Origin: Nitrospirota bacterium
GTDB lineage: Bacteria > Nitrospirota > Thermodesulfovibrionia > Thermodesulfovibrionales > SM23-35
Reading direction: 5' to 3'
DNA length: 44,780 nt
NCBI GenBank assembly: GCA_040754395.1
Contig: JBFMCL010000023.1
Coordinates: 1-44,780, forward strand
How positions within the stretch are numbered: position 1 is the stretch's first letter; every line of letters starts with the position of its first letter. Under the pieces are notes generated by a model. That model did not search any database and was not told the origin of the DNA. It was given only the letters and a program-made list of their open reading frames with translations. Position numbers and translations under genes: made by a program. This document shows, piece after piece, positions 29,667 to 42,787 of this stretch.

Positions 29667-29954
29667 CTATTTCTTGCCGAGGATGGCGTCTTTTGCAGCC
29701 TTCGCGACCCTGAATTTCACTACCTTCTTGGCGGGAATCTTGATAGCCTCGCCAGTCTGGGGGTTTCTTCCCTTACGGGCCTTGCGCTGGACAAGCACTA
29801 CTTTCCCGATGCCGGGAAGAGTGAAAGAATTCTTGGCCTCCTTGTATGCAAGCTTCGCGATCTCATCAAGAATCATGACCGCCTGCACCTTCTTGATATC
29901 GGCCTTTTTCGCAATGTGGTCTGCAATCTGGGACTTTGTCATGGGCTTTGCCAT
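29667..29954 (-). CDS. HU-family nucleoid protein
   Basis: 95-residue DNA-bending protein of the HU/IHF family. The beta-arm signature GRNPQTGEAIKIPAKKVVKFRVAKAAKD is intact, with the Pro that intercalates DNA in RNPQTG. The N-terminal MAKPMTKSQIADHIAKKADIKK helices are typical of the HU variants common in delta-type bacteria and Nitrospirota. A strong GGAGGAAGG site precedes the ATG. The start lies inside the last codons of the DsrE2-like gene, so the two may be translationally coupled. Confidence 0.9.
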   Translation of the reverse strand: MAKPMTKSQIADHIAKKADIKKVQAVMILDEIAKLAYKEAKNSFTLPGIGKVVLVQRKARKGRNPQTGEAIKIPAKKVVKFRVAKAAKDAILGKK

Positions 29955-30496
29955 AATATACCTTCCTCCTTCAAGTGAAATTTCCCTATTATAAAGTATT
30001 GTCCCAAGAATTGCTGCACTGTGTATTTGCTGTGCCGGATTTCCGGGTACGATACCTTGATCTTGCAGTCCTTGGCATATCTCAGGAATGTTTCCGCGGG
30101 CTCTATCACAACTCCCCCAATGAAATCCTCCTGCTTCAGCCCCATCATGTCAACCGTCATCTTGCATGCCACAAACTCCACACCCTCCAGCTGGGCCATC
30201 TCCAGAAGATCAGGCAACGCAGGTATCTGGGCCTTCTCTATCTTCCCCTTCATCATCCAGGTAGCCAGTGCCGACATGCCGGGTATAGCTGCCATCAGCC
30301 CCGGGGGATAGAATTTGGCTTTCTCCGTCCATCCCTTCCGAATCACGTTGATCCCCATGAAGGTATAAAATACCTTGCACTGCATCCCCAAACGGCGCGC
30401 GTTAATACCGAGTATCAATCCCGGATATGCGCCGTCAAGTGTGTCGCGTGAAGTAATAAACGCCGAAGTCTCTATCTGTTTGTTCGAATTCTCCAT
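29939..30496 (-). CDS. DsrE/DsrF-family protein (DsrE2-like)
   Basis: 185-residue protein of the DsrE/DrsE superfamily, related to the DsrE2/peroxiredoxin-like group involved in sulfur transfer. Recognisable parts are ITSRDTLDGAYPGLILGINARRLGM, a long Met/Gly-rich central segment, and VEFVACKMTVDMMGLKQEDFI, where the conserved Cys of DsrE2 lies (about residue 115). The final ~40 residues, starting near KVSYPEIRH, are not family-like and read through the HU ribosome-binding site, so the C-terminus may be extended or frame-shifted. Start at ATG 30496 with AGGGAGA upstream rather than 30529. No dsrAB or rhodanese is in the window. Confidence 0.7.
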   Translation of the reverse strand: MENSNKQIETSAFITSRDTLDGAYPGLILGINARRLGMQCKVFYTFMGINVIRKGWTEKAKFYPPGLMAAIPGMSALATWMMKGKIEKAQIPALPDLLEMAQLEGVEFVACKMTVDMMGLKQEDFIGGVVIEPAETFLRYAKDCKIKVSYPEIRHSKYTVQQFLGQYFIIGKFHLKEEGILWQSP

Positions 30497-30664
30497 AGTT
30501 ATTCTCCCTTTCAGTGTATGGAAACACAAAATGTGCTTCCGTTAATGGCACCTCAGGTAAATCTGCGAGGAACTTCCCGGCTGAGCCGGACATCTTTTAT
30601 GCGTACGATCCCCGGCAAGAAAGGCTGAAGGCTTACGTACGGCATTTTCTTCATGCCGCTGTAA

Positions 30665-32065
30665 TCAGTGAAGGGGCAGACTTATTGTGAAACAACTTCC
30701 TTTATCAATCTCGCTGGTCACCCTGATTGTACCACCGTGTGCTTCTATAATCGCCCTTGCAATACTCAGTCCAAGTCCGGTAGACTCCGAACCCCTTGAA
30801 GTATCTATCTGGTAGAATCTGTCAAATATCTTCTCCAGTTCATCTTCCGCCATTCCTGGGCCCGTATCTTCCACCATTATCTTGATACCGTCGGTGTCTT
30901 TAAAAGTCGATATCCCCACTCTGCCACCTGCCACGTTATATCGTATTGCATTTTCGATAATATTCAGAAATGCTTCAGTCAGCGCGTTTTGATCACCAAG
31001 AACAGTTGTCTGTTCTGCAAATACCGCATCAATTGTTATGCGTCGTTTTTTTGCAAGAACTTCTGCCAACTTTATTGCATTGCTCAGGCAAACAGGTATG
31101 GAGACAGATTGGAAGCTGGAAGAGAGAATCACCCCTGAATCAAGTCGGGTCAACGAGAGCATGTCATCTATCAGTTTTTTCATGGAACCGGAAATATCCC
31201 TGACAGTATTTAAAGCATGCGTATATTCTTCTTTTTCTCTATCTTTTTCCAGGAGCACATCACACTGAGCCCTGATAACAGACAAAGGGGTCTTAAGCTC
31301 ATGGGATACATCTGCAATCAGACGTTTTTTCATATCAAATGCCTTCTCAAGTCTGTTAAGCATGGCATTGAACGATTTTGCAAGTCCCTTTATTTCTTCA
31401 GCCTGCAGTTCGATCTCTATCCTGTCACTCATGGTTTTATGAGTGATTTTTTCAATTTTGGAAGAGAATTCCTTTAACGGGATTAAAGAACGTCTTGTTA
31501 TCCATAGACTTACTGAAGCAACGACAAAGATACTCACCAGTATTGCACCCAGCAGAAAATTATTGAACCTATCAAGCAGCTTGATTCTGTCTTCAAGCGT
31601 TTGCGCTGCGAATATCGTTGCAGGCTTGCCGAATATCTCAAAATCGTGCTGTATTACCATCATCAACTCACCGGCAGGACCGGTTGCCGTGGAAACCCTT
31701 TCCTTCAGTTCCCCATTGGAGGATTCAAAGTCTCCGGAAGCAAGATCGTATTCGATTTCAACTAATGAAGGGGAGGTGGCAAGAACCTTTTTATTCACAA
31801 GAACTGTATAGTAATGTCCCGACCTTGGGATAGAATATTCGCCCAGAATGACCTCCGCACGTTCCAGCTTGATCTCACCATCCTTTTCAGTCATAAGCCC
31901 TTTCAGTATCTGTATTTTTGAGTGAAGCACAAGCTCAACAGAAAGGTAAATGTTTTTCCTGACCTCTTGATAGATCGAAATACCAAGTATGATAAGCAGA
32001 CCGGTTATGAAGAAAAATATCCACAGAAATAACCTTCCTTTTATGGAGCTCGCGAGGGAATTCAT
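30665..32065 (-). CDS. Two-component sensor histidine kinase (CusS-like)
   Basis: 466-residue membrane kinase. TM1 (about 12-32), a ~135-residue periplasmic domain, TM2 (about 169-189), HAMP (about 190-245), HisKA with H255 in ADVSHELKTPL, and HATPase_c with the N box NIIENAIRYN, DTGPGM and STGLGLSIARAI. The layout matches the heavy-metal and copper kinase group (CusS/CopS) in size, but the periplasmic domain has no obvious metal-binding His/Met cluster, so the signal is open. It overlaps the response-regulator gene by 4 bases. Confidence 0.88.
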   Translation of the reverse strand: MNSLASSIKGRLFLWIFFFITGLLIILGISIYQEVRKNIYLSVELVLHSKIQILKGLMTEKDGEIKLERAEVILGEYSIPRSGHYYTVLVNKKVLATSPSLVEIEYDLASGDFESSNGELKERVSTATGPAGELMMVIQHDFEIFGKPATIFAAQTLEDRIKLLDRFNNFLLGAILVSIFVVASVSLWITRRSLIPLKEFSSKIEKITHKTMSDRIEIELQAEEIKGLAKSFNAMLNRLEKAFDMKKRLIADVSHELKTPLSVIRAQCDVLLEKDREKEEYTHALNTVRDISGSMKKLIDDMLSLTRLDSGVILSSSFQSVSIPVCLSNAIKLAEVLAKKRRITIDAVFAEQTTVLGDQNALTEAFLNIIENAIRYNVAGGRVGISTFKDTDGIKIMVEDTGPGMAEDELEKIFDRFYQIDTSRGSESTGLGLSIARAIIEAHGGTIRVTSEIDKGSCFTISLPLH

Positions 32066-32736
32066 GCGGGCCCCTTCAAAATATACCCTGCCCCCCTGAC
32101 AGTGTGAATGAGCTTTTTACTGTAGTTCCTGTCAATCTTGTTTCTCAGGAAATTGATGTAAACATCTATTACATTGCTATCAAGGTCAAAATCTTCAGCA
32201 TACACATGTTCAATAAGTTCGGTTCTGCTTATTATTCTTCCTTTGTTTATGGCGAGATATTCAAGTATGGAATACTCTTTCGCTGAGAGCTTTATCTCTT
32301 CATCCGTTCTCCTAACTGTTCTTGCGTTCGTGTCAATTGTCAGGTCATCTATTATGATAAGCGGGGAAGCTTTCCCTTTGGTCCTTCTTATTATTGCTTT
32401 CAATCTTGCCAGGAGTTCCGAAAAATCAAACGGCTTCACAATATAATCATCTGCTCCTATGTTCAGCCCCCTAACCCTGTCTTCAACGCTTCCCCTGGCG
32501 GTTAGCAAAAGAACCGGCACATCCACCTTGCTTTTTCGCAGATTGTCCAGGACTGTGAGCCCATCGACCTTGGGCAGCATAATATCGAGAATTATTGCGT
32601 CATATGTGAATGTTTCAGCCATGTACAAACCTTCTTCGCCGTCAAAAGAGCAATCTATGATAAAAGAATGTTCCTCAAGCCCCTTTTTCAAAATTTTTAC
32701 CAGATTTTTTTCATCCTCAACAATAAGAATCTTCAT
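32062..32736 (-). CDS. OmpR-family response regulator
   Basis: 224-residue transcription factor with receiver domain (phosphoacceptor D51 in AIILDIMLPKVDG, T80 region LLLTARG, K102 region YIVKPF) and a C-terminal OmpR/PhoB winged helix (about 125-222, ending VIDVYINFLRNKIDR and VRGAGYILKG). Closely resembles the CusR/CopR/MprA group. It probably controls its own operon via the dyad about 55 bases upstream. GGAAGACAACGGGAT provides the translation start at ATG 32736. Confidence 0.92.
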   Translation of the reverse strand: MKILIVEDEKNLVKILKKGLEEHSFIIDCSFDGEEGLYMAETFTYDAIILDIMLPKVDGLTVLDNLRKSKVDVPVLLLTARGSVEDRVRGLNIGADDYIVKPFDFSELLARLKAIIRRTKGKASPLIIIDDLTIDTNARTVRRTDEEIKLSAKEYSILEYLAINKGRIISRTELIEHVYAEDFDLDSNVIDVYINFLRNKIDRNYSKKLIHTVRGAGYILKGPA

Positions 32737-34385: not shown

Positions 34386-35273
34386 TTATGCTTTGGTTGA
34401 GGACATCCTGTACGGGCCATAGATGGATTTCAGCGCTACCTCCACTTTTGAGCCCACATCCGGCATCCTGTCCCAGTTCACCTTGTAATAATTGACCGTT
34501 GTCTTCAGAGGCAGAACATTATCAGTGATAATCCCGCCGTTGCAGTCAGAAGGACAGACGATGCATCCGGACGGAAATGCGATGGCCTCGGCAGTGCCAT
34601 GGTAAATGAAATGGGGAGTATACGGCTTGAATACTTCCCTCCCGTCGACAAAAATTTTCTCATCAATGAAGTCTTCGAGAGCTGCCTCAACGATAAGCGA
34701 GCCTTTCTTGAATCTGACGGTAACAATAATCGGATCGCCCTGGAGATAATCGTCACGCGTTGTTGTAGCTTTCAGTCCGGTACGCGCCTGGACTTCCTCC
34801 ATCGGAATCTGCCTCCGTGATTTTACCCCGATTTCCCGCAATGCCTTATCGATGTCGGTCCGGGACACATCGGTGGTAAACACAAAGAATGGCTCCATCT
34901 TTCCGCCCTTGGTACCAAAAAATGCCTGGAATCTCCGGCCCCAGTCTGCTACAGCAGGTTTAGAACTGTCTTTCGTCACTGTCGCGGAAATACGCAGTTC
35001 CTTGTTCTCCTTATCGACAACCATGCGGTCCTGCTTTCCTTTTACTATCCTCGTATTTTTTGTTTTCTGTGTTGCCGCATATGCCTGTGTCCCGGCAACA
35101 GAGCTCAACCCGAGGACGCCAAGGCCTATGACTTTCAGAAATTCATATCTGCTCATGCCCTCTGCGCTCTTTTCGTTCGCCTGTTTTTCTGACTGTTTAC
35201 CCAGAAGAACCGTGAAGGGATCAGCGCAGCAGGAACAATGAGAGTTCTGTTTTTCCTTTTTTGTGTTTTTCAT
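34386..35273 (-). CDS. YdjY-like exported protein with Cys-rich N-terminal segment
   Basis: 295 residues. An unusual N-terminal extension of ~40 residues holds HCSCCADPF before the signal segment MSRYEFLKVIGLGVLGLSS (about 40-58). That segment resembles a twin-arginine signal but has RY rather than RR. After the likely cleavage near AYA, a YdjY-type domain follows (about 80-295), with PFFVFTTDVSRTDIDKALREIGV, then GSLIVEAALEDFI and a Cys pair in GCIVCPSDCNGG. YdjY proteins are small exported proteins of uncertain function; the Cys motif suggests a metal or Fe-S site. Start at ATG 35273, preceded by AAGGAGG. Fourth gene of the minus-strand cluster below the DsrE/Fe-S/VTT genes. Confidence 0.6.
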   Translation of the reverse strand: MKNTKKEKQNSHCSCCADPFTVLLGKQSEKQANEKSAEGMSRYEFLKVIGLGVLGLSSVAGTQAYAATQKTKNTRIVKGKQDRMVVDKENKELRISATVTKDSSKPAVADWGRRFQAFFGTKGGKMEPFFVFTTDVSRTDIDKALREIGVKSRRQIPMEEVQARTGLKATTTRDDYLQGDPIIVTVRFKKGSLIVEAALEDFIDEKIFVDGREVFKPYTPHFIYHGTAEAIAFPSGCIVCPSDCNGGIITDNVLPLKTTVNYYKVNWDRMPDVGSKVEVALKSIYGPYRMSSTKA

Positions 35274-35321
35274 GTCTTCCTCCTTATATGACCGCATTCG
35301 GCCGGAAATACAATGTTCCCG

Positions 35322-36008
35322 CTAAATGAAAATGTCCGGTAATGATATGAGCAAAAGAATGCGTACCGTGAACCCGGCTATCATGATGATGAGTACGGGC
35401 TTTACGCGTATCCGGAACAGGGCACTGAGAAATGCAGGGATGACGACAGGCATGAGAGGTACGGAAAACAGGATTCCCGCGATTCCGCAGGCAGCATATT
35501 TCTTTGAGACAGACAGGTCATGCACATCCTGTTTTTTCAGGAGCACCGGCAATATATCGCCGAGGAAGAAAACGCCGAGCCCGAAGGCAATCAGTCCTGT
35601 CAGGAGAAGACTTGCATAGTTCAACGCCGTACTCTGCGGCAACCCCGCAACAGAGGTTATTGCTGCGACAAGAACAGGGTCGGAGAAGACCACCCAGAAG
35701 TTCTGGACAATATGGGCGAATAGAAGCAAAGGCAGTATCTTCGGGATAGTCTCAAGGGATTTGAAGTAATCCACAAGCATTTCCGTGTTTGCGCTCCTGA
35801 GATTGTTTTTCATGAAATTCACATGAAACTCTGCTGAATAGTAGTATGAATCCAACAGGTAGAAATAGTGGCTGAAAACCTTCACCGAAACAAGGGCCAG
35901 CACCGCAAGGACAGCAAGCGCGACGATTTTTTTCAGCAGTATCCTCTTTCTTGAAATCTCATATTCGCCTGTCCGTCCAGTTTTATTGTAAGTCATCCGT
36001 ATCTGCAT
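35322..36008 (-). CDS. Multi-pass inner-membrane protein, unidentified
   Basis: 228 residues with an N-terminal cytoplasmic stretch, one hydrophobic segment (about 28-48), a soluble loop and about four further helices from residue 92 on (PLLLFAHIVQNFWVVF, YASLLLTGLIAFGLGVFF, ACGIAGILFSVPLMPVVIPAFLSAL, PVLIIMIAGFTVRILLL). I do not recognise the family; permease-like and SoxW/DUF-type membrane proteins are possible. It starts 3 bases after the Fe-S/VTT fusion stop and precedes the YdjY-like gene by 48 bases, so it belongs to that operon. A second Met lies 4 codons inside. Confidence 0.6.
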   Translation of the reverse strand: MQIRMTYNKTGRTGEYEISRKRILLKKIVALAVLAVLALVSVKVFSHYFYLLDSYYYSAEFHVNFMKNNLRSANTEMLVDYFKSLETIPKILPLLLFAHIVQNFWVVFSDPVLVAAITSVAGLPQSTALNYASLLLTGLIAFGLGVFFLGDILPVLLKKQDVHDLSVSKKYAACGIAGILFSVPLMPVVIPAFLSALFRIRVKPVLIIMIAGFTVRILLLISLPDIFI

Positions 36009-36011
36009 TTG

Positions 36012-37871
36012 TTATAAAGGGTCTGTTGAGCCTTTCTTTATCTTGTACCGGTTATAGAAAAGGGGGATGAGGGAAACCAGTATAATCATTCCCAGCCCTA
36101 TGACAAAAGCCGGGGATACTTTTCCGCTGAAAAGATCGAGCAGCGAGCTCGAAAAAACGATGAACGCGATGCACGCCGGCAGCATGCAGATAAAGGTAGT
36201 CACCGCATAATGGAGAAATTTGATTTTTGTCAGTCCAAACGCGTAATTCAGGAGATTAAAGGGGAAAAGCGGAATGAGACGCGTGAAGGCGACAATCTTC
36301 CATCCGTGCTTTTCAACCCCTTCGTCGAGTCTGCGCCAGCGGGGGCTTTTGAGTTTCCCGTCCACCCAGTCCCGCGCAATGTAGCGTGATATGAGGAACG
36401 CCAGACAAGCGCCGGCAGTCGCGCTCGTGATTGTATACACCACACCCCAGAACGGGCCGAACAGAATACCTCCGGCTATGGTGATCGGAAGCCCGGGAAG
36501 GAAAAGGGCAGGTGCAACCGTGTACGCAAGCATATATATTACGGGAGCAAGGGCTCCGTATCCCTGGATGAGTTCCCTGAGCGCATCCTGTTCCAGATAG
36601 TGCGTGGCGCCAGTGTAGCGGATTGCAAAAATGGCAGCTATGACAAGAAGAAGCACGATACTGCGTGCTATTGTACCGTTTTTTTTCCGTTCATCACCGG
36701 TTGCAAGAGTTCTCTCACGTGTTATTCCGCCGTGTGCCATAGTTTTAAAGTAGTTTTTCAACTTCACACGGTTGAGATAGGTAAAAGGAGCCTTTGCCAC
36801 TTTTGCCTTTCCGGACATCGCTGCCCCAGGCTCAAATATGAGGTCTATGATATGGCTGGTCGGAGTCAGTGCATTCAGGAAATTTGCGCAGCCCGCACAA
36901 TAGGAAACGAGCATGGTTCCGTTGGTCTCTTTTTTTCTGAGAATCCCCCAGTTTTTTGCCAGATCCTGCGAAAGGAATCCAACAGCTCCCCCCTCACCAC
37001 AGCAGAGGGTTTTTGCTCCGCTGTGAGGCATTTCCTCCACCGACAGGCCTTTCCGCGAAACCAGGTCCCGTACCGTCGCATGGATTGACTCTTCGTATCT
37101 CACTGCGCATGAATCGTGGATTGCAACCGTGCCGGAAGCCCTGCCGGTTTCAGGCAGGCCATTCACTGCCATGAACTCGTATACCGTGCGCACCGAGAGT
37201 TCATCGCCGTATTGGTGAAAGACCTTGTAACAATTAGGGCAGGCAACAATGACATTGCGGACCCCGTGTGTTACGAGAAAATCCCTCATTTCGTCAAAGA
37301 AGGAATGAAAAAACCCGTCTCTTCCCAGATCATGGGATGGTTTGGTGCAGCAGTCAAGGACGATCCCGAGGGTTGGAACTGTTTTTTTCATATGCTCAAA
37401 TATTTTTCTCACTTTATCCGGCCTTGTGCCCGGAAGCGTACATCCGGGGAAAAAAACAGTGTCACATCCCTTGGGAAGGGAATAGTACGTATATTTCCGA
37501 GAGGTTCCCCGTTTTTCGTATCCAAGGATGAGGCCGTGCTCAGGGTAATTGCCATTCCCCCTGCGTACTGTCTCGCGCCGCATATCAAGAAACATCAGGG
37601 CAGGATTGATCTTGACCGGACAGACAGCCGCGCAGAGCTGGCACAGGCTGCATTCAAAGGGCATTCCCTGATGCACTTTGTCCGCCGGATCATATGCATC
37701 GGCAATATCCTTCGGCTTGCCGTATTTCCTCAGAAAAGCGCACTCCTTTTCGCAGAGTTTACATTTGATGCACTTTTCCGAGATTGCCATGATCTGCTCT
37801 TTCAGACCCTGACTTACCTCAAGCGCCGATACATCTCTGACCTGAACTTCTCCGGTTACCATAATACTCAT
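36012..37871 (-). CDS. Fusion of CCG-type Fe-S oxidoreductase and VTT/TVP38 membrane domain
   Basis: 619 residues in one continuous frame. The N-terminal half resembles HdrD/GlpC/LldE-type oxidoreductases: two [4Fe-4S] ferredoxin sites (C34/C37/C40/C44 and C74/C77/C80/C84), then CCG-domain Cys motifs DCCTKPS (C174-175), CPNCYKVF (C211/C214), CCGEGG (C290-291) and CAGCANF (C325/C328). After a linker (about 345-400) a VTT (SNARE-associated/TVP38/DedA) membrane domain begins, with helices at about 403-420 and 440-600 and the signature LPGLPITIAGGILFGPFWGVVYTITSATAG. No NAD or FAD domain is present. The arrangement suggests quinone or membrane-linked electron transfer, perhaps coupled to transport. 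ATG start 3 bases after the DsrE-like gene. Confidence 0.8.
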   Translation of the reverse strand: MSIMVTGEVQVRDVSALEVSQGLKEQIMAISEKCIKCKLCEKECAFLRKYGKPKDIADAYDPADKVHQGMPFECSLCQLCAAVCPVKINPALMFLDMRRETVRRGNGNYPEHGLILGYEKRGTSRKYTYYSLPKGCDTVFFPGCTLPGTRPDKVRKIFEHMKKTVPTLGIVLDCCTKPSHDLGRDGFFHSFFDEMRDFLVTHGVRNVIVACPNCYKVFHQYGDELSVRTVYEFMAVNGLPETGRASGTVAIHDSCAVRYEESIHATVRDLVSRKGLSVEEMPHSGAKTLCCGEGGAVGFLSQDLAKNWGILRKKETNGTMLVSYCAGCANFLNALTPTSHIIDLIFEPGAAMSGKAKVAKAPFTYLNRVKLKNYFKTMAHGGITRERTLATGDERKKNGTIARSIVLLLVIAAIFAIRYTGATHYLEQDALRELIQGYGALAPVIYMLAYTVAPALFLPGLPITIAGGILFGPFWGVVYTITSATAGACLAFLISRYIARDWVDGKLKSPRWRRLDEGVEKHGWKIVAFTRLIPLFPFNLLNYAFGLTKIKFLHYAVTTFICMLPACIAFIVFSSSLLDLFSGKVSPAFVIGLGMIILVSLIPLFYNRYKIKKGSTDPL

Positions 37872-37874
37872 ATC

Positions 37875-38210
37875 TTACAGAGTGATTGCCTGATCAATCC
37901 CCACCTCGCCAAGCGCTTTATAAAGGTCAGGGAAGCAGCCGATCATGGCTCCTTCCACAAGATCGCCGTCAATCTTTCGCTCAATTGCGCACCGGTCACA
38001 TCCCATGAGCAGCATGCCGGTAGACTTTGCGATTTTCGAAAGGCGTTCACCCACGTCATTCCCCCTCACAAGAAGAAATGTATTATCAACGAAAAAAAAC
38101 ATGCCGACTACCTCCGCAGCGTGTTCACCCTTTTCCATCTGAGGAATGATCATGTTGCTGAGGATATAATGGGCGAGGTTTGTTGAAAATATATAGGCGA
38201 CTTTCATCAA
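37875..38210 (-). CDS. Small DsrE-like protein (possibly SaoD-type)
   Basis: 111 residues in the DsrE/DsrF fold: MMKVAYIFSTNLAHYILSNMI, GMFFFVDNTFLLVRG, then GERLSKIAKSTGMLLMGCDRCAIERKI with a CxxC pair (about C70/C73), and a Cys in IGCFPDLYKAL, ending in AITL. From memory this closely follows the pattern of the DsrE-related proteins called SaoD. The CxxC and the additional Cys suggest persulfide or chalcogen handling. It is the first gene of the minus-strand cluster and is divergent from the ArsS-ArsM fusion gene 338 bases away. Confidence 0.65.
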   Translation of the reverse strand: MMKVAYIFSTNLAHYILSNMIIPQMEKGEHAAEVVGMFFFVDNTFLLVRGNDVGERLSKIAKSTGMLLMGCDRCAIERKIDGDLVEGAMIGCFPDLYKALGEVGIDQAITL

Positions 38211-38548
38211 AAACTCCTTTTTATTATTTCTGCTTTTTTATAATGTAACGTTCACAAGTGACCAATATCCAATTCTTAATTTCTATGAATTGCAGACGAT
38301 CCATAATACCCGTCAATATTTTTGCGGCATTTGAACCCCGGCTGCATGTTCCTTCCTCGTTGTTGTTGTTTCCGGAAAAAGGGGCGGCCGAAAGAATGCT
38401 TCCCTACTATCTCATCAGGAACATCACACCTCCGGAAATCAGATTATATAGAAACTTTCTATGGGAGAATCATGAATTATTGAACCGGCGTATTTGACAA
38501 TCAAAAAGTATGTTCCTGATAATACAGGAAATATACACAGGGGGAATA
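38211..38548. other. Divergent regulatory gap between DsrE-like and ArsS-ArsM genes
   Basis: No gene fits. The minus-strand side contains an A/T-rich stretch ending in AAAAAGGAGTT just before the DsrE-like ATG. The plus-strand side contains AGGGGGAAT before the ArsS-ArsM ATG, and -10-like ATTATAT around 38443. No clear repressor site or riboswitch was seen. Confidence 0.4.
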
Positions 38549-40546
38549 ATGGCTGTTTTATGGGCTGACAGCAAACTCAGCAAGTCAGGGCTTCAGACCA
38601 TCCAGATCAATCTCGGGAACAGGTGCAACCAGAACTGTTCCCATTGCCATGTCGGGGCCTCACCAAGCGGCAAGAAGAATATGGATGAATCTGTTGCAGG
38701 AAAAATTCTCTCGAAGCTCTCCGATTCTGATATAGCCCGCAGTGATATTGAATTCACAGGAGGGGCTCCGGAACTGAACCCGAACCTCGAATTGTTTCTC
38801 ACCGAACTCGGAAGGCTCGGCCGACACACCGTGGTGAGAACAAATCTCACGATACTTGATGCTCCGGAATATGCTTTCTACATTGATTTGTACAGGCGTT
38901 GCGGGGTAAAGGTTATTGCGTCACTGCCGAGCTGTTTCAAGGATATCACTGACCATCAGAGAGGCAAAGAGGTTTTCGACAGAAGCATCAGGGTACTCCG
39001 GAAACTGAATGCGGCTGGATACGGGACCGACGAACTGAGCCTGAGCCTCGTATATAATCCCCAGGGCACATATCTGCCCCCTTCTCAGGAAGAACTTGAA
39101 AGGGACTACAAAAAACTCCTGAAGGAAATGTACGGCATCACCTTCAACCGGCTAATCACCATTACGAATACCCCCGTGGGCGGGTTCAAGAGATACCTCC
39201 TGAACCAGGACAAATTCGATGATTACATGAACATGCTGGTGAATAATTTCAATCCGGCAACTCTGGACAACATCATGTGCAGACGCCTGCTTTCCGTAGA
39301 TTATCAGGGACATATATACGACTGCGATTTTAATCTCGCCCTCGGGATAAGGGTTAAAGAGTATGAAAAGAAGAAATTCTGGGATATAGATTTCAGCGAC
39401 TTCAATCCCGAGATAACATGTGCGGAGCATTGTTATGCGTGCACCGTAAACCGGGGCAGCAGTTGTCACGGAGCGCTGATAAAGGAAGAGGAAGGGTTTG
39501 ATGTGAAAGGGACTGTGGAACGGTACTATGGTTCTGAATTGAAAAGCACTGCAGACCTGAAGACCGGCGCATGCTGTACGGCAGACTCGCTTCCCGCGCA
39601 TGTGAAGGAAGTGCTTCCCTACATCGCGGAAGAAATCAGGGAACGGTACTATGGCTGCGGTTCTCCTGTCCCGCCTGTGCTCAACGGGTTGAAAGTCCTT
39701 GACATCGGGTGCGGTACCGGACGGGACTGCTACGTCTTTTCGAAGCTGGTAGGAGAGGAAGGAAGTGTTCATGGAATCGACATGACCGCGAGTCAGATAG
39801 AAGTCGCCATGAGGTATCAGAACGAACAGGCAGCGAGATTCGGCTACAAGAATTCCAATGTGCACTTCATTCATGACTATATAGAAAACCTTGGAAAGCA
39901 TTTCTCTGAAGGTTCCCTTGACCTGATCGTCTCAAACTGCGTGGTCAACCTCATCGAAGAAAAAGAAATGCTTATGCAACAGGTTTACAGGATTCTGAAA
40001 TACGGCGGGGAATTCTACTTTTCGGATATCTATGCAGACAGGAGACTGCCTGAACGTCTGAGAAGGAATCCTGTGCTCTATGGTGAATGTTTGGGAGGCG
40101 CACTTTACTGGAAGGATTTCGAAAGGATTGCCCGAAAAGCGGGTTTCGTCGATCCCCGGGCAGTCTCAAAAAGAGTCGTCGCGATATCACACGAAGAAAT
40201 AAAAACACTCACAGAAAATATCACTTTCTTTTCAATTACCTACAGGCTCTGGAAAATCAAGGGGCTTGAAGATGCGTGTGAGGACTACGGTCATGTCGCG
40301 ATATACAGGGGAGGGATTCCGGAATCACCTTACAGGCTGGAACTCGACGCAGCCCATGTCTTCGAAAAGGACAAGCCTGAAAGAGTATGCGGCAACACTG
40401 CGCGCATGCTTTCCGAGACCAGGTTCTCTCGCTACACCGAGGTTATCGGCAGCTTTGTGCAGCACTTCGGGCTGTTCGAAAGTTGCGGCACTCAAAAAAG
40501 CCGGGAACAAGGAAGAGACAGCCAGGGCCAATCCTCATGCTGTTAA
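38549..40546 (+). CDS. ArsS-type radical SAM enzyme fused to ArsM-type methyltransferase
   Basis: 665 residues. The first ~310 residues are a radical SAM protein with C26/C30/C33 (CNQNCSHC), EFTGGAPELNP, and C-terminal auxiliary Cys C244, C259, C291/C295/C298 and C306, matching arsenosugar-biosynthesis ArsS. Residues ~320-600 form an ArsM-like arsenite methyltransferase: SAM motif VLDIGCGTGRD, Cys at C342/C343, C370 (YYGCGSP), C464 (SNCVVNL) and C514 (GECLGGALYW). A ~65-residue tail ends in Cys-Cys. Substrates would be arsenite and a SAM-derived moiety, giving methylated arsenic and a 5'-deoxyadenosyl arsenical. I start at ATG 38549 with AGGGGG upstream. Normally ArsS and ArsM are separate proteins. 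No selenocysteine codon is seen. Confidence 0.88.
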   Translation: MAVLWADSKLSKSGLQTIQINLGNRCNQNCSHCHVGASPSGKKNMDESVAGKILSKLSDSDIARSDIEFTGGAPELNPNLELFLTELGRLGRHTVVRTNLTILDAPEYAFYIDLYRRCGVKVIASLPSCFKDITDHQRGKEVFDRSIRVLRKLNAAGYGTDELSLSLVYNPQGTYLPPSQEELERDYKKLLKEMYGITFNRLITITNTPVGGFKRYLLNQDKFDDYMNMLVNNFNPATLDNIMCRRLLSVDYQGHIYDCDFNLALGIRVKEYEKKKFWDIDFSDFNPEITCAEHCYACTVNRGSSCHGALIKEEEGFDVKGTVERYYGSELKSTADLKTGACCTADSLPAHVKEVLPYIAEEIRERYYGCGSPVPPVLNGLKVLDIGCGTGRDCYVFSKLVGEEGSVHGIDMTASQIEVAMRYQNEQAARFGYKNSNVHFIHDYIENLGKHFSEGSLDLIVSNCVVNLIEEKEMLMQQVYRILKYGGEFYFSDIYADRRLPERLRRNPVLYGECLGGALYWKDFERIARKAGFVDPRAVSKRVVAISHEEIKTLTENITFFSITYRLWKIKGLEDACEDYGHVAIYRGGIPESPYRLELDAAHVFEKDKPERVCGNTARMLSETRFSRYTEVIGSFVQHFGLFESCGTQKSREQGRDSQGQSSCC

Positions 40547-40623: not shown

Positions 40624-41937
40624 TCAGTGGGTAGCACATGCGATGCAGGGATCAAACGCCCTCACGACCCTTCCCACTGCACGTTCGATTTCCATATCGA
40701 TACGGTCAGAATCTATATATCGTTCTACAGAATTCCGCAAAGCCTGTTCTATTGCAATTATGTTGTGCACTGTAGGAAGAATGAATTTCGCCTCGGAAAT
40801 GATTCCGTTTGTGATCCGATAGTGGTGGATCAGCGGACCGCGAGGGGCCTCAACAAGACCATAGCCTTCGCTATCCCTTGTCCTGTATCCAACCATGGTC
40901 TCATCATTATCAAGCGGCTGCCGGAGTATCTCGATTGCACGTTCCAGGGCATATATGAGTTCAATGCCGCGTGCTATGTCGAACAGGAGAATCGCATGTG
41001 CAGGTCTTTCAAATGATTCCCTGAACTGCTCAAGATATCTGTCGGCAAGGGGAGTCCCCATATAGTCAGCAAGATTAATCCGTGCAAGACTGTTGGCACG
41101 GAAAACCTTTCCCCCGTAACTCGATTTCTCCGAATAACTGTACTCGCTTTCCTCAAACTGTATGTGATTCAAGTACCCGCTCGCAGGAAATGTTGCAAGA
41201 ATTCTTCCGTCTGGCCCCATTATCCTTATAGAATCACCCGTATAGTCAGGCCTGTACTCCGAGACTGCTGCGATATAGTGCGTTGGGGTATCGTCTCCCC
41301 AAGTCCCCAGCTGCTCCTTTAAGGCCACTGACTTTTCGATGTAATAGTCAAAGAGCTCACAGGCCATCGGAAGAGTTTTCATCAGTGTGCCATGCATTGT
41401 TTCTGCGAGTTTCTCCTCAATGCCACCGGTGACACCTCCAATGACTGCCTTCACCGGATGAATGAATTGCCCCCCTGCGGTATCGATCAGTTTCGTGCCG
41501 GCATTCCGGACCTGAAGAGCCCTGTGCGCCAGACTACTCAGTTGCTCTGCTGAGCCAGCTTCTCCGGCTGCCTCCAGGATGCTGGACAGACCGAGACGGT
41601 CGGGCATGGTGAAAAGGAAAAGTGAGGTGGCCTGATTTTGTATCATCTGTCCCAGCATCAGGAGCTCGCGAATGCTCAGGGCAAGCGGAGGGGGAATTAC
41701 CCCAAAAGCCATTTCCAATGCCTTAACCGAAGCCAGATGGTGAGCAGTCGAACAGACCCCGCATATCCGGGGCACAATGACGACCATCTGCTCCGGCGCC
41801 ACGCCTTTTACAAAATGTTCAAACCCCCGGTATTCTGTAGCTTTGAATCTTGCTGATACTACCCTGCCTGCGTGCACTTCAATGACAACCTGTGCATGTC
41901 CTTCAATACGGCTGACTGGAAAGACAATCTTCGGCAT
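40624..41937 (-). CDS. [NiFe] hydrogenase large subunit without C-terminal extension
   Basis: 437-residue catalytic subunit, similar to cytoplasmic group 3 (Mvh/Hyd/Hox-type) large subunits. The NiFe ligands are RICGVCSTAH (C59/C62) and the C-terminal DPCIACATH (C431/C434). The stop codon follows the final His directly, so there is no C-terminal peptide for an endopeptidase to remove. That is known for regulatory hydrogenases and a few energy-converting ones but is unusual for group 3. I use ATG 41937, one base after the small-subunit stop; the longer frame to 42105 is a shadow of that gene. No diaphorase, MvhD or HdrA gene is visible, and no hyp maturation gene. Confidence 0.85.
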   Translation of the reverse strand: MPKIVFPVSRIEGHAQVVIEVHAGRVVSARFKATEYRGFEHFVKGVAPEQMVVIVPRICGVCSTAHHLASVKALEMAFGVIPPPLALSIRELLMLGQMIQNQATSLFLFTMPDRLGLSSILEAAGEAGSAEQLSSLAHRALQVRNAGTKLIDTAGGQFIHPVKAVIGGVTGGIEEKLAETMHGTLMKTLPMACELFDYYIEKSVALKEQLGTWGDDTPTHYIAAVSEYRPDYTGDSIRIMGPDGRILATFPASGYLNHIQFEESEYSYSEKSSYGGKVFRANSLARINLADYMGTPLADRYLEQFRESFERPAHAILLFDIARGIELIYALERAIEILRQPLDNDETMVGYRTRDSEGYGLVEAPRGPLIHHYRITNGIISEAKFILPTVHNIIAIEQALRNSVERYIDSDRIDMEIERAVGRVVRAFDPCIACATH

Positions 41938-41938
41938 T

Positions 41939-42787
41939 CTACACAACCTTCTCTTTGGGCCTTGGCAGACGTCCTGTGTGCGCATAGTCAGAAAACTGAA
42001 AAAGAAAAAGGGAAAGCTGGGGTGAGCGGAGACCTTCTTCAATGGCATCATCAGGAATGTCTGTAAGTGCAACAAAGACTTTTTTGATACTCTCAAACCA
42101 TGCATCAGAACCTTTCTCGATCAGGGCATTTGAGGGTCCACGGCATCCTACGCAGGGATGCCCGGCACGTGGACATGGCGCTCCGCAACCATTTCTGGTC
42201 GAGGTACCGATGCACAGGAACCCCTGTTTAATCAGACAGACTTCGGGTGAGACTTTTCCCTCCTGAAACCCGGTAATCTGAGCGGGGCGAATCTCCCGGA
42301 TTTTCTTTCTTCTGCATTCCGCACAGACTGTGGTATTCGTGCGGATCTTTCCATTTTCAGAGAGTACCGAATGGAAAAGTTCCGGTGTCGGAGGACAACC
42401 GGGAAGGTAAAGGTCGACAGAAACATATTCATCAATCGGGTATGACCGGGGAAGAAGACGGGGAACATGATGGCGGGCTGACTGTGAAAAGAATAATTCA
42501 CGCACATTGTCACGATTCCCGAGAGAGGCAATACCGCCTGATATTGCACACGTGCCAATAGCAACAACGTAGCCGGTTTTTCTGACCGCCCGGTGAAGAT
42601 TATACACATCCTCATCAGTCCGGACGCCGCCGCTTATCAGCAGCCTGTCCGTGTCAGGCATATCATGAACCGAGATCACAAGCGGCATGTAGAGAAGCCT
42701 GTATTCATCTATCCAGGCCTGACTGTTCAGGAGTCCGACTTCACAGCCTGCGCAACCTGACAGCTGAAGAACCGCAAACGTCTTCAT
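41939..42787 (-). CDS. [NiFe] hydrogenase small subunit
   Basis: 282 residues. Proximal-cluster ligands C12 and C15 (SGCAGCE), C80 (GTCAISGG) and C131 (LPGCPPTPE) are present. The C-terminal half is Cys-rich: C155/C158 (CAECRRKK), C184, C192, and C201/C205/C212/C215 (NGCGAPCPRAGHPCVGC), enough for the medial and distal clusters plus possibly one more. There is no Tat signal, so the enzyme is cytoplasmic. The pair resembles MvhG/A or the alpha/delta subunits of cytoplasmic group 3 hydrogenases. The large-subunit start follows immediately. ATG at 42787. Confidence 0.83.
   Translation of the reverse strand: MKTFAVLQLSGCAGCEVGLLNSQAWIDEYRLLYMPLVISVHDMPDTDRLLISGGVRTDEDVYNLHRAVRKTGYVVAIGTCAISGGIASLGNRDNVRELFFSQSARHHVPRLLPRSYPIDEYVSVDLYLPGCPPTPELFHSVLSENGKIRTNTTVCAECRRKKIREIRPAQITGFQEGKVSPEVCLIKQGFLCIGTSTRNGCGAPCPRAGHPCVGCRGPSNALIEKGSDAWFESIKKVFVALTDIPDDAIEEGLRSPQLSLFLFQFSDYAHTGRLPRPKEKVV

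Follow-up and report, generated by a model that had tools for sequence, protein, structure and literature searches.

The window analysed here is the whole of contig JBFMCL010000023.1 (C23; 44,780 nucleotides), part of a Nitrospirota draft genome (G000; 2.98 Mb, 99.96% complete, 75 contigs) most closely related, among named genomes, to metagenome-assembled genomes of Nitrospirota. It carries a divergent locus in which a fused ArsS–ArsM gene faces a four-gene operon, and this operon encodes a putative iron–sulfur (Fe-S) reductase fused to a VTT membrane domain. The initial annotation had placed five divergent genes here; all of them are present on the strands described and the profile matches agree, with two start codons corrected. 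Gene identities, the ArsS–ArsM fusion and the reductase-like/VTT operon are established at the level of sequence. Domains were called with Pfam and NCBIfam profiles scored against curated cut-offs, and other genomes and loci in the comparison carry G and L codes.

34386..35297, minus strand: YdjY-domain protein, 303 aa, last gene of the operon (NF040466, 92 bits against a cut-off of 50)
35322..36008, minus strand: multi-pass membrane protein, 228 aa, possibly a diverged VTT protein (sub-threshold Pfam VTT match)
36012..37871, minus strand: FeS/CCG–VTT fusion, 619 aa (Pfam: two Fer4 sites, CCG, C-terminal VTT/DedA)
37875..38207, minus strand: small SaoD/DsrE-family protein, 110 aa, with a CxxC motif (CDRC), first gene of the operon (NF040732)
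38208..38548, no strand: divergent intergenic region, 341 bp, GC 0.38, bounded by open reading frame (ORF) starts set from ribosome-binding sites
38549..40546, plus strand: ArsS–ArsM fusion, 665 aa, radical SAM ArsS plus arsenite methyltransferase, C-terminal Cys-Cys (TIGR04167)

The FeS/CCG–VTT fusion carries two [4Fe-4S] ferredoxin sites (C34/37/40/44 and C74/77/80/84), two HdrD-like CCG motifs (C144/174/175/211/214 and C255/290/291/325/328) and then the VTT domain, which scores 97.7 bits against a Pfam cut-off of 33.9. A pair of CCG motifs characterises HdrB/HdrD-type reductases, and the fusion has both motifs together with the Fer4 ligands expected of the HdrD/CCG group. The 18 cysteines of the cluster-ligand motifs are invariant in an alignment of 16 homologues, and the protein also matches the C-terminal part of NF045663 ('diclust_near_Sec') with 231 bits. 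It shares its two [4Fe-4S] sites and two CCG motifs with the HdrD/GlpC/LdhH-type reductases and NF045663, but it has no FAD/NAD domain and is fused to VTT in place of a cytochrome-b-type anchor. The fusion looks like an Fe-S disulfide-reductase-like enzyme joined to a membrane domain.

The ArsS half of the facing gene scores 363.9 against the TIGR04167 cut-off of 300 and has both the radical SAM CxxxCxxC motif and the C-terminal Cys of the family; cysteines 26, 30, 33, 244, 259, 295, 298 and 306 are invariant in 14 sequences. The ArsM half aligns with solved arsenite methyltransferases (5evj, E 1e-90; 4kw7 and 4fr0, E 1e-81), including the motifs YYGCGS, SNCV and GECLGGA, whose cysteines vary little or not at all across ten fusions. 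It falls below the NCBIfam cut-offs of the single-domain ArsM models, and its methyltransferase domain is found. The start of the gene was shifted downstream to 38549, the codon behind the ribosome-binding site AGGGGGAA. Because ArsM and ArsS form one polypeptide, a single protein should methylate arsenite and add the 5'-deoxyadenosyl group. ArsS adenosylates arsenic, according to the passage of PMC12159101 that cites Cheng et al. (2021).

The operon is transcribed in the order SaoD, FeS/CCG–VTT fusion, membrane protein and YdjY, and its successive genes are separated by 3, 3 and 24 bp. SaoD passes NF040732 narrowly (172.8 bits against 169) and narrowly misses the sister model NF040913 (149.4 against 152); an AAGGAG ribosome-binding site puts its start at 38207. 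The membrane protein has five hydrophobic segments, and its residues 112–222 match Pfam VTT at E=0.005 with 17.7 bits, below the cut-off of 33.9; hhalign aligns the same region to the VTT set with 25% identity at E 8e-4. YdjY contains a C-x2-C-x3-C motif (GCIVCPSDC) that is invariant in an alignment of eight homologues, including E. coli YdjY. Its N-terminal extension holds two vicinal Cys residues and a predicted export signal of degenerate Tat-like form; YdjY is probably an exported Cys protein. Neither SaoD nor YdjY is similar by sequence to a solved structure.

The comparison covered 246 Nitrospirota genomes, with 150 genomes of the class searched for the membrane protein, which is present in two of them, the window genome and G219. 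In G219 the genes for SaoD, the fusion, the membrane protein and YdjY (83, 70/81, 49 and 77% identical) stand in the same order, with a 79-aa ORF between the second and third genes. The identical order of all four genes argues for an operon over a chance neighbourhood. YdjY occurs in nine of the 246 genomes; six of these also have the fusion, and all six pairs lie within 5 kb (hypergeometric P 8e-7 for co-presence, kinship not corrected for). As a separate observation, G223 has a YdjY gene between a methyltransferase gene and a radical SAM gene from outside the ArsS family (L145:6578-9857).

Homologues of the fusion fall into close orthologues (61–74% identical) and a second clade (33–36%). 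The second-clade fusion stands beside ArsS in six of eight loci (G014, G114, G230, G146, G192 and G158, the last split over contigs). Glycosyltransferases of the TIGR04283 and TIGR04282 types occur in these loci, with YedF and rhodanese as frequent further neighbours. In G128 and G109 such glycosyltransferases stand near the fusion, with no ArsS adjoining. Among the eight close loci, ArsS adjoins the fusion in the window and in L004, where the order is fusion, YdjY, a DUF3343 remnant, ArsS–ArsM and an MIP channel. About half of all FeS/CCG–VTT loci therefore adjoin ArsS, and on the tree of the fusion the linkage requires at least two to three changes and does not form one clade.

Fused ArsS–ArsM proteins occur in 11 of the 246 genomes, and in nine of these a VTT domain, alone or fused, lies within 8 kb. 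This census is complete, with the VTT position in G144 taken from a separate search and the G158 fusion cut by a contig end. ArsS was not significantly enriched in fusion genomes (10/14 against 116/232, P 0.17), so the link is one of position and not of presence. Among 65 ArsS loci examined, a sample partly picked for VTT, 22 have VTT, 22 have a disulfide-reductase-type gene and 16 have both. A flavin disulfide reductase of the mercuric reductase or dihydrolipoamide dehydrogenase type accompanies VTT beside ArsS in G130, G111, G118, G109, G182, G005 and G024.

Reductase and VTT genes beside ArsS are also found outside the Nitrospirota, in Proteobacteria and a cyanobacterium. Cupriavidus has ArsM, ArsS, an FAD reductase, VTT, TIGR04283 and TIGR04282, while the order in Pseudanabaena is ArsR, kinase, regulator, VTT, mercuric reductase, ArsM, VTT and ArsS. 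In Acinetobacter, ArsS is followed by a 716-aa protein in which VTT and an FAD reductase are fused, by the two glycosyltransferases and by a methyltransferase resembling ArsM (50% identity to that of the window). On plasmids of the Fusobacteria Cetobacterium and Ilyobacter (L173, L174), one operon contains an FAD/Fe-S-CCG oxidoreductase, rhodanese, VTT, a YnjBCD-like ABC transporter and a YnjF-like protein. Here the Fe-S/CCG domain sits behind a flavin domain, and the operon includes a CDP-alcohol phosphatidyltransferase gene. Among COG0398 DedA proteins, the commonest fusion partners are pyridine nucleotide-disulfide oxidoreductases (PMC10127716).

The window resembles several known systems without matching any. 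Like the arsenosugar ArsS clusters, it has ArsS and ArsM with an adjoining disulfide-reductase-like enzyme and VTT, and the Acinetobacter portensis cluster likewise has reductase and VTT fused together. It differs from them in having an Fe-S/CCG (HdrD-like) reductase where they have a flavin enzyme, in the single ArsS–ArsM protein, in the absence of TIGR04282 and TIGR04283 from the locus, and in the addition of SaoD and YdjY. The combination of YdjY with one full VTT in the fusion and the sub-threshold VTT membrane protein was compared with ydjXYZ-type operons: E. coli ydjX-ydjY-ydjZ-ynjABCDE also has VTT, YdjY and a second VTT (doubtful in the window) in one operon. The Fusobacteria share the Fe-S/CCG domain beside VTT, and their combination of this pair with Ynj genes ties the window to the E. 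coli operon. The window lacks the ABC transporter, AhpD and rhodanese of these operons, whereas it has ArsS–ArsM.

SAO (selenocysteine-assisted organometallic) genes were reportedly described by Haft and Gwadz in 2023. The window shares with that system a SaoD family member just over its curated cut-off and an organometal theme, but no SAO selenoprotein or ABC transporter was seen beside the operon. NF040733, an ABC permease that we take to be part of the SAO system and the sole further Sao-type model searched, had no match over cut-off in the window genome.

We give about even chances to a reading of the locus as a variant organoarsenic (arsenosugar) cluster of the ArsS type, in which an Fe-S reductase–VTT protein recycles thiols and takes part in membrane transfer. 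The new feature is the fusion of an Fe-S reductase-like enzyme to VTT; an ArsS cluster with a reductase and VTT is already a known kind. No paper describing the ArsS/VTT/reductase linkage was found in the literature searched, of which coverage was partial. The unit that recurs is a disulfide-type reductase with VTT, the reductase chemistry being interchangeable, beside ArsS or SelD/YedF.

ArsM turnover leaves a disulfide that needs reduction. Given this and the adenosylation by ArsS, the simplest role for the reductase would be to restore thiols or to reduce a thiol-bound chalcogen or metalloid at the membrane. The later steps we infer as follows. The Fe-S/CCG half may stand in for the flavin enzyme, a disulfide reductase resembling mercuric reductase, that is found with VTT in other ArsS clusters; ferredoxin or a different low-potential donor would supply its electrons. 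It could re-reduce the disulfide in the active site of ArsM, or S-S, S-Se or As-S species delivered by SaoD, and the VTT part may pass the product, a thiol species or a lipid across the membrane to YdjY. As the reductase–VTT–YdjY unit is also present in selenium loci, a thiol or selenol/persulfide is a likelier direct substrate than an organoarsenical.

Several observations weigh against the arsenosugar-cluster interpretation. Six of the eight close loci are not ArsS-adjacent, and three of them (L003, L007, L008) have neither ArsS nor selenium genes adjoining. G164, G178 and G219 have no intact ArsS; in G219 the operon is intact and ArsS–ArsM has decayed to three colinear pieces (residues 15–22, 168–248 and 436–466) in mixed frames on another contig (L105:6221-6575), although a fault in the draft assembly is conceivable. 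Reductase and VTT are missing from most Nitrospira-type ArsS loci and, outside the phylum, from three of the six plasmid lineages with ArsS; Burkholderia, Thiodictyon and Hymenobacter have no such pair. With the 65-locus set partly selected for VTT, only the 11-genome ArsS–ArsM census is unbiased. For the membrane protein and YdjY, AlphaFold reached a mean pLDDT of 41–42 from alignments of 2–3 sequences, and fold searches with these models were dropped.

The arsenosugar glycosyltransferases bear on the same question. No TIGR04282 or TIGR04283 match over cut-off was found in the window assembly; TIGR04282 is present in 13/13 and TIGR04283 in 12/13 of the other fusion genomes. The window genome also has no SelB over cut-off, while its SelD reads through an in-frame TGA and SelB is present in 13 of the 14 fusion genomes. 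In G219 both glycosyltransferase genes lie 4.4–5.8 kb from SelB, so a single missing draft stretch could explain both gaps, and the glycosyltransferases are recorded for the window genome as not found, not as wholly lacking.

The strongest competitor, which we regard as possible though clearly less probable, is that the operon is a selenium/sulfur module for selenide or persulfide reduction and transfer, with the ArsS–ArsM adjacency incidental or secondary. SelD/YedF neighbours are as common as ArsS among the close orthologues. G130 (L075:8851-14436) has the order ArsR, SelD (with TGA), TauE, YedF, YdjY and fusion, L006 has SelD, DUF3343, YedF, cysteine desulfurase and fusion, and L005, whose contig starts inside the desulfurase gene, is probably a third such operon. 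The DUF3343 remnant of L004 lies between YdjY and ArsS–ArsM, in G225 both SelD and a LysR gene of selenium type (scoring under its cut-off) lie 2 kb away from YdjY, YedF occurs within ArsS operons, DsrE-type domains are found in both SaoD and YedF, and SelB is nearly universal in fusion genomes. Yet no selenium gene adjoins the operon in the window, no SelB match in the window genome exceeds the cut-off, ArsS is a recurrent neighbour in each of the two fusion clades, and other phyla have reductase and VTT beside ArsS without selenium genes. Two side observations belong with these loci: the SelD at L075 is a second copy in a selenium-type cluster adjoining an ArsR-family regulator, and G140 has VTT, rhodanese and an Fe-S/CCG protein in a row (L085:5182-7620), the rhodanese with an in-frame TGA at the expected active-site cysteine (VY*IFDRRS), a candidate selenoprotein rhodanese.

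The initial annotation had proposed a self-contained system that makes and exports one organoarsenical, with all five parts acting on it alone. The tight divergent arrangement fits this, as do L004, G230, G192 and G158, where the fusion, YdjY and ArsS–ArsM also occur together. We consider it unlikely: two close orthologues, probably three, sit in selenium operons, G219 keeps the operon without an intact ArsS, G164 and G178 have the fusion without ArsS, and SaoD and the membrane protein accompany ArsS in the window genome only. The broader idea of an organoarsenic or chalcogen module is partly supported: the outcome named beforehand as refuting it, a lack of co-occurrence with ArsS elsewhere, was not observed, since the fusion and VTT are repeatedly linked to ArsS, but SaoD and the membrane protein are not consistently tied to it. 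An envelope-lipid or general thiol-redox module unrelated to metalloids, with VTT as a phospholipid scramblase, is more doubtful again: E. coli ydjXYZ has no arsenic genes, a lipid-type role has been proposed for COG0398/TMEM41B relatives (PMC10127716), and the Fusobacteria operon has its CDP-alcohol phosphatidyltransferase, but the association with ArsS, SelD, YedF and rhodanese genes is repeated. A defence system was rejected, its matches being to the methyltransferase and radical SAM superfamilies only, and for a phage or plasmid origin no close relative was found.

The fusion lies 639 bp from the ArsS–ArsM ORF as originally called. The intergenic region contains a promoter-like TTGACA-18-GATAAT on the plus strand (38494–38523) and an inverted repeat, ATAGAAACTTTCTAT, at 38448–38462; an argument from promoter number was dropped, since eight promoter-like sites against 5.8 expected is not above chance. 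An Rfam search of the window gave no riboswitch or other RNA in this region and just two tRNAs in the window. One further feature is a two-component pair:

30665..32736, minus strand: histidine kinase and response regulator, closest to the heavy-metal CzcS/CzcR models (TIGR01386, TIGR01387)

Both proteins score under the cut-offs (256 bits against 292 and 259 against 279, respectively). The pair, also CopRS-like, is about 1.6 kb past the YdjY gene, from which two small genes for envelope proteins separate it, and this nearness alone suggests that it belongs to the module. A further DsrE-type gene, for a DsrE2-type sulfur carrier family protein (29939–30529), is found 7.3 kb away from SaoD. On the other side, large and small subunit genes of an Mvh/Vhu-type (F420-non-reducing) NiFe hydrogenase (40624–42787) converge on ArsS–ArsM, and no heterodisulfide reductase genes were seen next to them.

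A more specific scenario, which we hold to be improbable, is an anaerobe-adapted path in which a membrane-fused, ferredoxin-driven Fe-S reductase renews ArsM thiols or handles Se- or S-bound arsenic, coupled to membrane transfer; without the arsenosugar glycosyltransferases, it would lead to an undescribed arsenic (or arsenic–selenium) metabolite. For the ArsM/ArsS pathway, the fusion provides a concrete candidate gene for the reductant. For the COG0398-type VTT/DedA proteins, which have no agreed substrate, and for E. coli ydjXYZ-ynjABCDE, which has no known function, the repeated pairing of VTT with a flavin or Fe-S disulfide reductase beside ArsS and SelD, at times within one polypeptide, offers a lead toward thiol or selenol redox chemistry at the membrane.

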